Below, one piece after another: positions 58,108 through 62,496 of a stretch of 64,000 nt of DNA. Position 1 is the first letter of the stretch. Each line of letters opens with the position of its first letter. The position numbers and the translations under genes were made by a program. The stretch is from Streptomyces sp. H27-H1 (lineage in GTDB: Bacteria > Actinomycetota > Actinomycetes > Streptomycetales > Streptomycetaceae). The stretch is from NCBI RefSeq assembly GCF_026627445.1, contig NZ_JAPNLJ010000038.1, forward strand, positions 1-64,000, in the 5' to 3' direction. The notes below the pieces were generated by a model that was not told the DNA's origin, ran no database searches, and worked only from the letters and a program-made list of their open reading frames with translations.

Positions 58108-59745
58108 ATGACTGCAACCCTCGTCGCCAAGAAGCTCACCGCCGCGCACGGTGAGCGCACGCTCTTCGCCGATCTCGACCTCGTCGTCGCGCCCGGCGAC
58201 GTCATCGGCCTCGTCGGCGTCAACGGCGCCGGGAAGTCCACGCTGCTGCGGATGCTCGCCGGGCTGGACGCCCCCGAGACCGGTGAGGTGCGGCTCTCCC
58301 CGCCCACCGCCGCCGTCGGTCACCTCCCCCAGGAGCCGGAGCGGCGCCCCGGGGAGTCGGTCCGCGAGTTCCTGGCCCGGCGTACCGGGGTGGCCACGGC
58401 GCAGGCCGAACTCGACGCGGCGACGCAGGGCCTCGTGGACGGCGCGGCGGGCGCGGACGACGCGTACGCGGACGCCCTCGACCGGTGGCTGAACCTCGGC
58501 GGCGCCGACCTCGACGAGCGGGCCCAGGAGGTCGCCGACGACCTCGGGCTCGCGGTGGGACTCGACCTGCCGATGACCGCGCTGTCCGGCGGCCAGGCCG
58601 CCCGCGCCGGACTGGCCTCGCTCCTGCTGTCCCGCTACGACGTCTTCCTGCTCGACGAGCCGACCAACGACCTCGACCTCGACGGTCTGGAGCGCCTGGA
58701 GCAGTTCGTGAAGGGGCTGCGCGCCGGCACCGTCGTGATCAGCCACGACCGCGAGTTCCTCACGCGCACTGTCACCAAGGTCCTCGAACTCGACCTGGCC
58801 CAGCAGCAGATCAACCTCTACGGCGGCGGCTACGACGCCTACCTGGAGGAGCGCGAGCGGTCCCGCAGCCACGCCCGCGAGGAGTACGACGAGTACGCCG
58901 ACAAGCGGTCCGCCCTGGAGGGCCGGGCCGCGATGCAGCGGGGCTGGATGGACAAGGGCGTCAAGAACGCCCGCCGCAAGGCCACCGACAACGACAAGAT
59001 CGGCAAGAAGTTCCGCAGCGAGGCGAGCGAGAAGCAGGCCTCCAAGGCCCGCCAGACGCAGCGCGCGATCGAGCGGCTCGACGTGGTCGACGAACCGCGC
59101 AAGGAGTGGGATCTGCGCATGGAGATCGCCGCGGCCCCGCGCTCCGGCTCGGTGGTCGCCACCCTGCGCGAAGCCGCGGTCCAGCGCGGGGACTTCGGCT
59201 TCGGACCGGCGAGCCTGCAGATCGACTGGGCGGACCGGGTCGCCATCACCGGAGCCAACGGGGCCGGGAAGTCGACCCTGTTGGCCGTGCTCCTGGGCCG
59301 GCTCGCCCCGGACTCCGGCGCGGCCACCCTCGGTTCGGGTGTGCTGGTCGGCGAAGTGGACCAGGCTCGCGGCCTGTTCCTCGGCGACGAGCCGCTCATC
59401 GAGGCCTTCTGCGCCGCGGTGCCCGACACCGAGCCGGCCGACGTCCGCACCCTGCTCGCCAAGTTCGGCCTGAAGGCGGCGCACGTGACCCGTCCGGCGG
59501 CCACCCTCTCCCCCGGCGAGCGCACCCGGGCGGCCCTGGCGCTCCTCCAGGGGCGCGGGGTGAACCTGCTGGTGCTGGACGAGCCGACGAACCACCTCGA
59601 CCTGCCGGCGATCGAGCAGCTGGAGTCCGCTCTGGAGGCCTACGAGGGCACCCTGCTGCTGGTCACCCACGACCGCCGGATGCTCGACGCGGTCCAGGTG
59701 ACCCGCAGGCTGCACGTCGCCGGCGGCAAGGTCACCGAGCTCTGA
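58108..59745 (+). CDS. ABC-F family ATP-binding protein
   Basis: 545 residues from ATG 58108; TAGGAT at 58093-58098 may be the -10 of a nearly leaderless transcript. Two ATPase domains are present without membrane segments. The first has GLVGVNGAGKSTLLRML, ALSGGQAARAGLASLLL and VFLLDEPTNDLDL; the second has AITGANGAGKSTLLAVL, LSPGERTRAALALLQ and LLVLDEPTNHLDL. The charged linker RSRSHAREEYDEYADKRSALEGRAAMQRGWMDKGVKNARRK is the ABC-F interdomain arm. Members act on ribosomes, in translation rescue or antibiotic protection. Confidence 0.94.
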   Translation: MTATLVAKKLTAAHGERTLFADLDLVVAPGDVIGLVGVNGAGKSTLLRMLAGLDAPETGEVRLSPPTAAVGHLPQEPERRPGESVREFLARRTGVATAQAELDAATQGLVDGAAGADDAYADALDRWLNLGGADLDERAQEVADDLGLAVGLDLPMTALSGGQAARAGLASLLLSRYDVFLLDEPTNDLDLDGLERLEQFVKGLRAGTVVISHDREFLTRTVTKVLELDLAQQQINLYGGGYDAYLEERERSRSHAREEYDEYADKRSALEGRAAMQRGWMDKGVKNARRKATDNDKIGKKFRSEASEKQASKARQTQRAIERLDVVDEPRKEWDLRMEIAAAPRSGSVVATLREAAVQRGDFGFGPASLQIDWADRVAITGANGAGKSTLLAVLLGRLAPDSGAATLGSGVLVGEVDQARGLFLGDEPLIEAFCAAVPDTEPADVRTLLAKFGLKAAHVTRPAATLSPGERTRAALALLQGRGVNLLVLDEPTNHLDLPAIEQLESALEAYEGTLLLVTHDRRMLDAVQVTRRLHVAGGKVTEL

Positions 59746-59828: not shown

Positions 59829-60608
59829 TCAGCCCACGTCCGCCGGGGGGCGCCGCTTGCGGGCCATCTTCCGGGCCACGAAGGTGCGCGGGAGGTGGCG
59901 GGCCGCGAAGGCGTACGCCTGGTAGCGCCGGCCGGTGATGCTCACGGGGCGGCGCCGGGCAAGGTCCTTCAGTGCCTGGGCCACGACGTCGCGCGGCTCG
60001 AGCCACACCGCGTCGCTCAGGGCGCTGACGTCCATCCCGGCGCGCTCCTGGAACTCGGTGCGGGTGAATCCCGGCACCACCGCCAGCACGCGGACCCCGT
60101 ACGGCTCCATGTCCACGCGCAGCGACTCGCTGAAGGCCGTGATCCAGGCCTTCGCGGCGCCGTACGTCCCGGTCGGCAGCAGTCCGGCCACCGAGGAGAT
60201 GTTGAGCACCGCGCCGCGGCGGCGCTCGCGCAGGCCCGGGAGCAGTGCGTGGGTGAGCCGGAGCGGCACCTTGACCAGCAGGTCGAGCATCCGCTCCTCG
60301 TCCTCGACCGGGCTGTACGGGAACGGCGCGGGGAGCCCGAAGCCCGCGTTGTTGACCAGGATGTCGACGGGCCGGGCCCGGTCGGCGAGCCGCTCGGCGA
60401 CGGATCCGAGCCCGCCCGTGTCGAGCAGGTCGGCGGGCAACACCTCGCAGACGGCGCCGAATTCACGGCCGAGGTCCGCGGCGACCGCTTCGAGGCGGTC
60501 CTTGTCGCGGGCTACGAGGACGAGGTCGCAGCCCTTGGCGGCGAAGCCGCGGGCGAAGGCCGCGCCGAGTCCGGCGCTGGCCCCTGTGATCAGTACGGTG
60601 GTGGTCAA
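59829..60608 (-). CDS. SDR family oxidoreductase (DltE-like)
   Basis: 259 residues from ATG 60608, overlapping the upstream stop as ATGA. Motifs are VLITGASAGLGAAFARGFAAKG (TGxxxGxG), DILVNNAGFGLPAPF, LNISSVAGLLPTGTYGAAKAWITAFSESL (catalytic Ser, Tyr, Lys). The C terminus is basic. It is the last gene of an operon with an ImmA/IrrE peptidase and a membrane protein. Confidence 0.9.
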   Translation of the reverse strand: MTTTVLITGASAGLGAAFARGFAAKGCDLVLVARDKDRLEAVAADLGREFGAVCEVLPADLLDTGGLGSVAERLADRARPVDILVNNAGFGLPAPFPYSPVEDEERMLDLLVKVPLRLTHALLPGLRERRRGAVLNISSVAGLLPTGTYGAAKAWITAFSESLRVDMEPYGVRVLAVVPGFTRTEFQERAGMDVSALSDAVWLEPRDVVAQALKDLARRRPVSITGRRYQAYAFAARHLPRTFVARKMARKRRPPADVG

Positions 60609-61813
60609 GAGACTTTCGCTTCCTGGCTGTCGAGCGGGGTGAAGCCTGTGATGGCCGGTGAGGTGTAGGCCCGGGCGACATCCACGAGGAAGCGGGCCTC
60701 GCCTTCCAGGTCACCACCCTCGGCCGAGGTCTGGAGGGCCGCGGGCAGTTCCAAGGCGCTCTCCTCGCTGCGCTGTTGCGGTCCCCCGGCCAGCTTCGCC
60801 TGCCGCGCCTCCTTCAGTACGCAGGCCAGCGCGGCGGCACTGGCCCGCGGTTCGGGGACTCCGCTGCCCGCCACGTGGCTGCGCGCGAGCTCCGGCACGC
60901 CCGGGGCTACGTACTCCCCCAGGATCAGGATGGCGTCGCGGGTCTCGATGACCTTGCGGTAGACGAGCAGGTTGCGCGGGACCGGCGGCCACAGCAGCTC
61001 CAGCACCCGGCCGGCGCGCGGCTTGTTGAGGGCGACGTGCGGGACGGCGTGCACCAGGTCGCGCCAGAGCGGCCACAGCCGCCAGGCGGTGGCGATGTCG
61101 GAGGCCGTACGGCGGAAGGTGAAGAGCGTCGGGACGAGGATCGCGGCGGCGCGGAGCAGGCCGTGCACGTTCATCAGCAGCGGGTTCGCGGGCATCGCCC
61201 AGGTGAATCCGAACAGCGCCTTGAGCAGGTACACGAACCAGAACACCCCGGCGAGCCCGGTGCCGAGGCCGAACAGCAGCAGTCCGGCGGCGAGGCCCCG
61301 GCTCTCGGCGCGGCGGCTGTAGCGCCAGCAGACGTACACGCAGATGGTGTTGGCGAGCAGGTGGGCGGAGATCAGCACCAGCCAGTACGCGAGGGAGGGC
61401 ACCGGGTCGCCGACGGGCGGGATGGTGTGCGTGCCGTGGGCGGGCGCCGCCGTGTCCAGTACGACGAGGACACTCAGCCACAGGACCGTGCCTGCGCCGG
61501 AGGCGATCTGGAGCCGGCGGCCCCGGGTGGCGGCGGCCACGAAGTAGAGAACGGCGCCCGCCGAGAGGACGCCGATGAGGTTGCGCACCAGCCCGATGGT
61601 GTGTGCGTAGCCCGGATCGCGGCCCATGGCGTAGGCGACGACGTCGGGGAGGTTCAGGGTCATCGCAGCCGCGGCGGTGGCCACGGCGAGCCACAGGCCC
61701 CGCTGGTGCGGGGCACGCAGGGCGCCGGGCGCACGGAGCAGGACCGCGATCCAGAGGCCTATGACACTGGGGACGGCGAGCGCGTCGCCGAAGGCGATCA
61801 GATCAGAAGCCAC
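60605..61813 (-). CDS. MAB_1171c-like putative membrane transporter/sensor
   Basis: 402 residues from GTG 61813 (VASDLIAFGDALAVPSVIG). About seven membrane helices fill the first 240 residues, followed by a cytoplasmic domain containing VYRKVIETRDAILILGEYV. This architecture matches the MAB_1171c/DUF6545 family, which is repeatedly found next to ImmA/IrrE peptidases in actinobacteria. The function is unknown. It overlaps both neighbours, which implies tight co-expression. Confidence 0.78.
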   Translation of the reverse strand: MASDLIAFGDALAVPSVIGLWIAVLLRAPGALRAPHQRGLWLAVATAAAAMTLNLPDVVAYAMGRDPGYAHTIGLVRNLIGVLSAGAVLYFVAAATRGRRLQIASGAGTVLWLSVLVVLDTAAPAHGTHTIPPVGDPVPSLAYWLVLISAHLLANTICVYVCWRYSRRAESRGLAAGLLLFGLGTGLAGVFWFVYLLKALFGFTWAMPANPLLMNVHGLLRAAAILVPTLFTFRRTASDIATAWRLWPLWRDLVHAVPHVALNKPRAGRVLELLWPPVPRNLLVYRKVIETRDAILILGEYVAPGVPELARSHVAGSGVPEPRASAAALACVLKEARQAKLAGGPQQRSEESALELPAALQTSAEGGDLEGEARFLVDVARAYTSPAITGFTPLDSQEAKVS

Positions 61814-62348
61814 GGTGGACCGGCCCCCGCCCACGGCGCTCGTAGCCCATCGCGGACTCCAGCCGGGCGAGCGTGTCCCGGCCCCCGGCTCCGTGGCCCA
61901 GGTGCGGGCCGCGGGTGCCCGTGCGGATGCGGATCATGCTGGCGAGCATCTCCGCCTCCCGCTCCTGGCGGGTGGTGTAGTTGGTGCGCCCGAGCACTGT
62001 GGGGACGGGCCCGTGCGCCCCGCCGGCGCCCAGGGGGGTCTCGTCGGGGGCTTCCAGGGAGTGGTGCCCGAAGAGGATGTGGCCGATCTCGTGGAGCACG
62101 ATGTGCTCCCGGTGCAGCGGGGTGGTCTGGGCCTCGTAGAAGACGAAGTCCACGCTGGCGGTCCCGACCCACAGCCCGCACACTCCGGACTCGGCGGCCT
62201 CCTTGGGCAGCGGGTGGAGCCGGATGGGGCGGCCCCGTTGCTCGGCTATCCGCTCGCACAGTCCGTCCAGGGAGAACGGGTGCGTCAGTTCGAGACGGCC
62301 GAGAATCGCCTCGCACCGCTTGCGCAGACTGGGTTGAGGGTGGCGCAT
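61803..62348 (-). CDS. ImmA/IrrE family metallopeptidase
   Basis: 181 residues from ATG 62348 with AGGGAAA upstream. The zinc-peptidase motif is REHIVLHEIGHILFGH (HExxH with a third ligand in REREAEMLASMI). ImmA of ICEBs1 and IrrE of Deinococcus cleave HTH repressors in response to DNA damage. No Xre-type repressor is adjacent here, so the target is unknown. It leads the operon ImmA-membrane protein-SDR. Confidence 0.87.
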   Translation of the reverse strand: MRHPQPSLRKRCEAILGRLELTHPFSLDGLCERIAEQRGRPIRLHPLPKEAAESGVCGLWVGTASVDFVFYEAQTTPLHREHIVLHEIGHILFGHHSLEAPDETPLGAGGAHGPVPTVLGRTNYTTRQEREAEMLASMIRIRTGTRGPHLGHGAGGRDTLARLESAMGYERRGRGPVHRGF

Positions 62349-62461
62349 ATTTTCCCTCTTCGGACCCTTTCTCGGGCAGCGATGATAGGCGTGCGTGGGC
62401 ATGGGCATGACGTCCTTAAGCCTTCAAAGCGGCCCCGGGAGCGCGGTCCTGAGGGAAACAC

Positions 62462-62496
62462 GGAAGCCCGCTCGCCGAGTAACGAACGGGCGTTCC
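62462..62496 (-). terminator. Hairpin downstream of tex
   Basis: Arms around GGAAGCCCGCTCG (62462-62474) and CGAACGGGCGTTCC (62483-62496) pair with one mismatch and one bulge around an 8-base loop. The element follows the tex stop by about 90 bases and precedes the ImmA promoter (TATCAT near 62378-62383 on the minus strand). Confidence 0.6.

Follow-up and report, generated by a model that had tools for sequence, protein, structure and literature searches.

A Streptomyces operon of a peptidase, a DUF6545 membrane protein and a dehydrogenase is the regulator-less form of a recurrent actinobacterial module with possible links to EspR

What does an ImmA/IrrE-type metallopeptidase do when the helix-turn-helix (HTH) repressor that such peptidases usually cleave is not encoded beside it? 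The question is raised by an operon of Streptomyces sp. H27-H1, found in a stretch of 64,000 nucleotides (the window; contig NZ_JAPNLJ010000038.1, G+C about 72%) that belongs to an 8.9-Mb genome whose close relatives are Streptomyces. Its minus strand carries genes for a 201-residue ImmA/IrrE-type (M78-like) metallopeptidase (61803 to 62408), a membrane protein of about 402 residues of the DUF6545/MAB_1171c family (60605 to 61813) and a classical short-chain dehydrogenase/reductase (SDR) of 259 residues (59829 to 60608, TTG start; PF00106). The first two genes overlap by 11 nt, and the stop of the DUF6545 gene overlaps the SDR start by 4 nt (TTGA). The original prediction described an operon of three overlapping genes without an HTH gene beside the peptidase; both statements hold at this locus, the first with corrected starts, and no HTH gene adjoins the trio in the window. 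By its gene order, overlaps and co-occurrence the operon is the HTH-less form of a recurrent actinobacterial module. We lean, tentatively and a little short of an even chance, towards reading that module as a receptor-gated protease switch, in which a seven-transmembrane (7-TM) sensor would control the activity of an ImmA-type protease and the protease would in turn inactivate an EspR-like regulator, a part that the window copy has lost.

The recurrence of the module is seen best in genome-wide counts from 101 congeneric genomes, the only ones unaffected by the choice of loci, since the 115 loci fetched in addition were picked for DUF6545 or the peptidase. DUF6545 is present in 83 of these genomes and the peptidase in 80, and the strain's own genome has 11 copies of the former and 7 of the latter. 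A listed peptidase lies within 4 kb of 137 of the 150 best-listed DUF6545 matches, and the reverse count is also 137 of 150, which leaves 13 unpaired rows in each. EspR-like HTH genes follow the same pattern, with 93 of 112 listed rows (E <= 1e-10) within 4 kb of a listed DUF6545 gene, where a crude uniform estimate gives about 0.2, and 17 with neither partner listed nearby, a few of the rows being two rows of one gene. The lists being capped, some of the unpaired rows of all three kinds may be missed pairs. In the fetched loci the peptidase gene stands directly upstream, on the same strand, of 89 of the 108 called DUF6545 genes. In 75 cases another gene on that strand precedes the peptidase by no more than 500 bp; 52 of these genes belong to one HTH cluster (representative L054) and 11 are tex. 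The common order is HTH, peptidase, DUF6545 and a variable enzyme. These locus counts are lower bounds, because gene calling overlooked some HTH genes (e.g., in L059), some peptidases (as in L240) and entire modules (L053/L216, L218, L220). The survey of MAB_1171c-like neighbourhoods suggested with the original prediction thus finds DUF6545 with the peptidase, and often with an EspR-like HTH gene. The co-conserved operon supports the idea of a signalling-type module built on a protease and a multi-helix membrane protein; the further claim that such modules lack an Xre partner is not supported, as many relatives carry one of the EspR family and SDR-type loci with an HTH gene exist.

The assignment of this HTH protein rests on similarity over its full length. 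The representative L054 matches the solved structure of EspR (3r1f) over residues 4-131, E 7.6e-12, beyond the HTH part too, so that by sequence the module regulator, its C-terminal part included, is a member of the EspR family. EspR (Rv3849) is a nucleoid-associated regulator of ESX-1 genes.

How the window came to lack this gene can be followed in its relatives. Among 20 loci taken from the best peptidase matches in the congeneric genomes, the trio is present in 12 (L042-L052 and L054), its SDR sharing 72-95% identity with that of the window, and in L059 DUF6545 is accompanied by a piece of an SDR (75% identity). In 75 named loci the order tex, peptidase, DUF6545, SDR is kept throughout the closest relatives, e.g., S. 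cirratus, S. virginiae, S. lavendulae and S. avidinii. A DUF6545 tree of 83 rows, some of its deep branches long and unsure, puts the window inside a 42-row clade with a Shimodaira-Hasegawa-like approximate likelihood-ratio (SH-aLRT) support of 100. SDR is found in 42 of these 42 rows and a called HTH gene in none; 39 adjoin tex and L222 does not, and L209 and L210 are truncated by a contig end within some hundreds of bases before the operon, too close to judge whether tex or HTH is present. As the trio recurs through this clade, it is not a chance arrangement, and the lack of co-conservation that would have spoken against the original prediction was not seen. SDR-type loci that keep the regulator also exist: L216 (S. 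fulvorobeus) carries the complete four-gene series in order, the HTH gene is also present in L054, in L225 (S. piniterrae) and in L240 (Streptantibioticus rubrisoli, where gene calling gave no peptidase), and an EspR-family search places an HTH gene, missed by gene calling, beside the L059 peptidase. The phylogeny shows that the HTH gene was lost in the window lineage, and a single loss in the ancestor of the 42-row clade would be the simplest history. A second group in the tree comprises 15 rows; none of them has the SDR, and 14 lack the HTH gene. A second Streptomyces group of peptidase-DUF6545 pairs with no adjacent called HTH or SDR was noted (L232, L234-L239, L242-L245, L249), often beside a divergent gene of about 499 residues.

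No orphan partner turned up elsewhere in the genome. The strain's own genome encodes six EspR-like HTH genes (E <= 0.01), each within 4 kb of another DUF6545 copy, and searching the 176-contig assembly with the EspR-family profile, which seeks EspR-like HTH proteins only, found no orphan one as a candidate for the missing Xre partner that the original prediction proposed to look for. A possible trace of the regulator lies upstream of the genes. The sequence GTTGAC/GTCAAC occurs upstream of 55 of 104 Streptomyces HTH genes, of 142 of 2110 other genes and of 0 of 47 window-type operons, and may be an operator that was lost along with the regulator; the sequences compared are related rather than independent, and no half-site spacing stands out. 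The core TTTGC of the published EspR motif, TTTGC[TC][GA] (PMC3315491), shows no enrichment in front of the Streptomyces HTH genes: 15 of 104 regions have it, vs 18.2 expected.

The peptidase falls below the gathering cut-off of the M78 model PF06114 (16.7 vs 22 bits), and its ImmA/IrrE-type label is given by fold and active site, though it lies outside curated Pfam membership. Counted from the inner of its two possible starts, H86, E87 and H90 (HExxH) and E129 and E131 (ExEAE) do not vary in any of the 34 relatives aligned; in the window the motifs read HEIGH, intact, and QEREAE. Its structure model has a mean predicted local distance difference test (pLDDT) score of 80.5. A Foldseek search with the models of the peptidase and of the membrane protein gave no match at E 0.001, IrrE appearing for the peptidase at E 0.12. 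On re-alignment the best structures were IrrE (3dti and 3dte), at Z 10.4 over 102-103 residues with a root-mean-square deviation of about 3, followed by CapP (7t5t; Z 10.2) and PprI (Z 9.8). IrrE- and CapP-type peptidases act on HTH regulators, as in the pairs IrrE-DdrO and CapP-CapH.

The membrane protein is placed by two family models, NF042915 (MAB_1171c family; 142 bits vs a cut-off of 100) and PF20182 (DUF6545; 104 vs 24.4 bits, E 9e-30). Its own structure model (pLDDT 91.4) has seven long helices, the seventh of which extends 50 residues as a stalk and leads into an all-helical cytosolic domain. From this model, and from the positive-inside rule read by eye, we predict a 7-TM protein with its N-terminus outside. 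Of the 15 invariant columns, ten fall in the cytosolic part, at residue 246 or later, and the motifs PLWxxL and YRxxIExRDA stand out in wider DUF6545 sets.

In the complete module we propose that the 7-TM protein would sense something at or in the membrane, that its cytosolic helical domain would hold or release the peptidase encoded by the overlapping gene, and that the active peptidase would cut or otherwise inactivate the EspR-like regulator, so that the operon and its enzyme become derepressed. The gene overlaps and the close pairing suggest that the peptidase and the 7-TM protein act together, and from them regulation of the peptidase by DUF6545 can be inferred with good reason. Inactivation of the regulator is suggested by the EspR-like HTH gene in many copies of the module and by the habit of the peptidase family, ImmA being required for the proteolytic inactivation of ImmR (PMC2701414). 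In the window lineage, the HTH gone, the receptor-protease pair and the SDR have stayed together and would be read from a conserved putative promoter of their own. As the HTH gene is lost, the protease there would have to act on another target, which might be an EspR-like protein of another module, the cytosolic domain of DUF6545 or something else.

A number of observations weigh against this switch. The receptor likeness that speaks for it comes from a Foldseek search in which the best matches of the DUF6545 model were 7-TM receptors at a weak E of 0.013, and from a re-alignment in which 50 of the 50 rows shown were 7-TM receptors, at Z 14.2-15.6 over about 220 residues (best 15.6 over 223); helical bundles match each other readily, the tool warning below about Z 13, and the likeness is therefore taken as one of topology and not as a sign of homology. 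Hydropathy alone gives five strong TM segments in the window protein vs seven in its counterpart at L157, a Mycobacterium-type locus described below, so that the count of seven rests on the model. The family is not universal, being present in 18 of 396 genomes of a phylum-wide sample, and its NCBI name is putative transporter. The supposed substrate is absent from the window copy, and one genome with the trio (G030) is not among the 50 of 101 in which an EspR-like HTH gene was listed (E <= 1e-10; best 38 candidates per genome scored), so that the trio may work without such a protein. The gene that follows DUF6545 varies to an extreme degree, and in 41 of 108 cases no gene from another family lies on the same strand within 150 bp; in two of these 41 a second DUF6545 gene follows. 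In the Mycobacterium-type genomes about half lack the peptidase (it is present in only 62 of 118), and at L157, L160 and L252-L255 the peptidase and DUF6545 genes are convergent to espR and outside its operon.

The family name points to a different role, in which DUF6545 would be the exporter of a small hydrophobic product made or modified by the enzyme, with the peptidase and HTH protein doing no more than regulate this short pathway. The downstream genes bear on this. In 67 of the 108 cases a same-strand gene of another family lies within 150 bp, and the families, which are BLAST clusters named by Pfam through one representative per larger cluster, are SDR (14), PAP2-type (11), P450 (11), aldo/keto reductase (5), thiamine-binding (4), amidase (4), flavin adenine dinucleotide (FAD) enzyme (3), no Pfam match (3), amidohydrolase (2), AMP-binding of the acyl-CoA ligase type (2) and eight singles, including squalene/phytoene synthase, NUDIX, methyltransferase and gamma-glutamyltranspeptidase. 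Several of these types (P450, PAP2, squalene/phytoene synthase, acyl-CoA ligase) act on small hydrophobic compounds, and such a compound could serve as an exported product as well as the ligand or product of a membrane receptor. The phenotypes of an M. abscessus MAB_1171c mutant, namely about half the biofilm mass and lower minimum inhibitory concentrations (MICs) of clarithromycin and cefoxitin, were taken by their authors as a matter of export (PMC8707978). A bundle with a long cytosolic stalk and domain, the concentration of invariant columns in the cytosol and the receptor-only re-alignment nevertheless fit an exporter poorly, and the partner kept most faithfully is the protease, not the enzyme. 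We consider a transporter unlikely, and return to the receptor-gated protease.

The enzyme of the window itself is an SDR by PF00106 (139 vs 26.6 bits, E 1.4e-40). Its translation shows TGASAGLG and YGAAK, corresponding to TGxxxGxG and YxxxK of classical SDRs, and the nearest solved sequences are various SDRs. It might make or remove a related, probably hydrophobic, small molecule. Another recurrent last gene encodes a membrane protein of about 200 residues, of the PAP2 superfamily by its representative (L063:8606-9199 and ten further loci), often with a 4-nt overlap.

There are two other explanations. One sees a decayed toxin-antitoxin or stress-suicide module of the COG2856-Xre kind, the HTH protein being antitoxin or repressor and the peptidase toxin or activator. 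Such pairs were listed as toxin-antitoxin-like by Makarova 2009 (PMC2701414), the peptidase of one plasmid relative is annotated as a toxin, and the multi-copy distribution (11 DUF6545 copies in one genome) would agree. Set against this, the window copy is stably maintained throughout a clade in which no HTH gene was called, no toxin gene is recognised beside it, and the constant partner is a membrane protein; we regard the explanation as very improbable. The other holds that the peptidase changed its purpose in the window lineage and now cleaves the cytosolic domain of DUF6545 or the SDR rather than acting on any transcription factor. The HTH-less trio kept in 42 rows, the 14 HTH-less rows of the second tree group, the lack of an orphan EspR-like gene in the own genome and of any listed in G030, and the GTTGAC counts (55 of 104 upstream of HTH genes, none of 47 upstream of the trio) all speak for it. 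Against it, 11 of 12 sampled genomes with the trio carry an EspR-like HTH gene somewhere, so that the peptidase could act in trans, and no cleavage site was identified. This, too, seems to us an unlikely account, and the loss of the regulator from a receptor-gated protease switch remains the reading that we prefer.

Does the pairing extend to EspR itself? The HTH protein of L157, a locus from another family of the same class whose genus is taken from its EspR to be Mycobacterium, is an EspR ortholog (3r1f, residues 1-131, E 2e-67). The gene sits between GDT1-family and DUF6474 genes, and a convergent DUF6545-type gene and a peptidase gene adjoin it. Profile comparison relates these partners to those of the window, DUF6545 at 96% probability over 320 columns and the peptidase at 98%; the plain Pfam match of the L157 DUF6545 protein is borderline (23.9 vs 24.4 bits in one scan, 26.3 in another). 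Among 118 Mycobacterium-type genomes 117 have EspR. An EspR-like gene lies within 4 kb of 64 of the 68 peptidase matches found there; the other four comprise two in fragmented drafts, with EspR on another contig, and two extra copies. Conversely, 126 EspR-like matches divide into 64 with a peptidase within 4 kb and 62 without, and identity to the L157 protein follows this division. Those with a peptidase are 61 at >=87% and three divergent copies at 46-48%, and those without are 48 of 48 at 76-86%, 11 at >=87% (two in fragmented drafts) and three at 65-67%. The solved EspR, about 81% identical by our own count on the alignment, falls inside the peptidase-less range of 76-86%. Each of the genomes G721, G753 and G757 has an additional, divergent EspR-like gene (46-48% identity) and, close to it, a peptidase gene of its own.

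Family-wide, in 201 genomes, an EspR-like row lies within 4 kb of 74 of 74 listed peptidase rows, and a peptidase lies near 52 of the 85 best EspR rows. In seven loci fetched for EspR (L253-L259) the peptidase is beside it in all seven and a DUF6545-type protein in six, the match being weak in L257-L259 (E 6e-6 to 4e-5). In sister genera an HTH-peptidase-DUF6545 run occupies the same place between GDT1 and DUF6474 genes (L260-L264, L269, L270; in L271 with one flank). Together these neighbourhoods suggest an extension that we hold as possible, and as the less secure of our two proposals, namely that a bacterial seven-helix receptor gates a separate cytosolic ImmA-type metalloprotease controlling EspR-family nucleoid regulators, and that mycobacterial EspR is the regulator surviving from such a module, keeping its partners in about half of the Mycobacterium-type genomes sampled and standing alone in the others, whereas the Streptomyces trio would be the mirror case. 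Transcription of espR is reported to be under PhoP (PMC4038636), which is not contradicted here.

Within the window the trio is flanked by the C-terminal part of tex (62589 onwards) and by a convergent ABC-F gene on the plus strand (58108-59745). The peptidase start at 62348 in the original prediction is a real ATG, but the inner of two in frame (181 residues); the outer, at 62408, shows coding conservation and is probably the real or an alternative start, adding a 20-codon extension. An in-frame upstream ATG is present in 47 of 47 readable orthologous upstream regions (of 48 orthologues, L213 being dropped for a pattern misfit; several are one strain under two locus ids), exactly 60 nt upstream in 39 of them, and the variability per codon position across 16 codons of the extension (1.06/0.45/2.17) is a coding signature. 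The DUF6545 frame is open to 61834, and alignment places its start probably at GTG 61813. A probable operon promoter on the minus strand, seen through conservation only, comprises TTGCCA (62530-62525) and TAGGCAT (62506-62500) separated by 18 nt, its letters common to 70-90% or more of rows in the consensus of the 47 regions. Directly downstream of the putative -10 the alignment shows an inverted repeat (62462-62496, no strand assigned), which could be an operator, a leader hairpin or a tex terminator.

Related arrangements were also seen elsewhere. A search with the window DUF6545 protein gave seven matches (E <= 1e-5) in 72,556 plasmid records, all Streptomyces. Six of these were inspected (H6 being unannotated in that stretch; the seventh, H5, is a record of 1.1 kb), and the annotated ones have the order HTH, peptidase (named ImmA/IrrE, hypothetical or toxin), MAB_1171c, then P450 or methyltransferase. 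A rearranged form (L073-L079, L085) has in most cases a gene of about 240 residues, then DUF6545, a gene of about 150 residues and the peptidase downstream, and most of these loci adjoin a large opposite-strand gene of >1000 residues. In the strain's own genome three copies (L067, L069 and L070, on C77, C66 and C147) have DUF6545 beside FAD-type oxidoreductase genes, and C66 and C147 carry tandem DUF6545 pairs. A defence module was considered as the main reading and rejected. A PADLOC scan of the three trio proteins gave only a capP match at E 0.0068, tblastn with the DUF6545 protein found 0 matches in 50,697 phage records, and the locus has a fixed place beside tex in most of the clade; the defence-type role raised in the original prediction is not supported by these results.

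That prediction knew of no described function for the arrangement, and our literature searches found none. In the open-licence literature, most subscription journals lying outside it, we found no mention of DUF6545, a single paper naming MAB_1171c, no account of any protein partner or sensor dedicated to EspR itself and nothing joining EspR and IrrE; protease-repressor pairs are known already, and it is the 7-TM partner, the EspR-type regulator and the membership of the espR locus that we did not find in print there. The arrangement suggests how a membrane signal could control EspR-class regulators, by a membrane-to-regulator route other than two-component systems, and it offers a candidate function for DUF6545, an uncharacterised family of which this one genome has 11 copies. 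EspR is a virulence regulator, and the receptor-protease neighbourhood makes the question of its sensor or partner testable in harmless relatives.

Several known systems share parts of this design. The pairs ImmA-ImmR of ICEBs1 and IrrE/PprI-DdrO of Deinococcus also have an M78-type zinc peptidase with HExxH, often beside an HTH regulator gene, but the present module adds a membrane partner in an overlapping gene, an HTH protein of the EspR type and often an enzyme, and in the window the HTH is gone. CapP-CapH of the cyclic-oligonucleotide-based anti-phage signalling system (CBASS) resembles the locus in its peptidase fold and in the weak capP match; the window locus, however, lacks a CapH-like HTH gene and has a 7-TM partner, and PADLOC names neither of the other two proteins. 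MAB_1171c of M. abscessus belongs to the same membrane protein family by NF042915; the one paper found on it reports a mutant with biofilm and MIC phenotypes (PMC8707978). With EspR the likeness lies in the module HTH of Streptomyces, of the same family, and in Mycobacterium-type espR loci with homologous partners; the difference is that the window lineage has no EspR-like gene at the locus and that the solved EspR belongs to the identity range without a nearby peptidase. A likeness in working is seen with BlaR1/MecR1-BlaI, in which a membrane sensor leads to proteolytic loss of the repressor. There sensor and protease are one protein, whereas here they would be separate proteins, the peptidase being remotely similar to that of BlaR1 (Z about 4).

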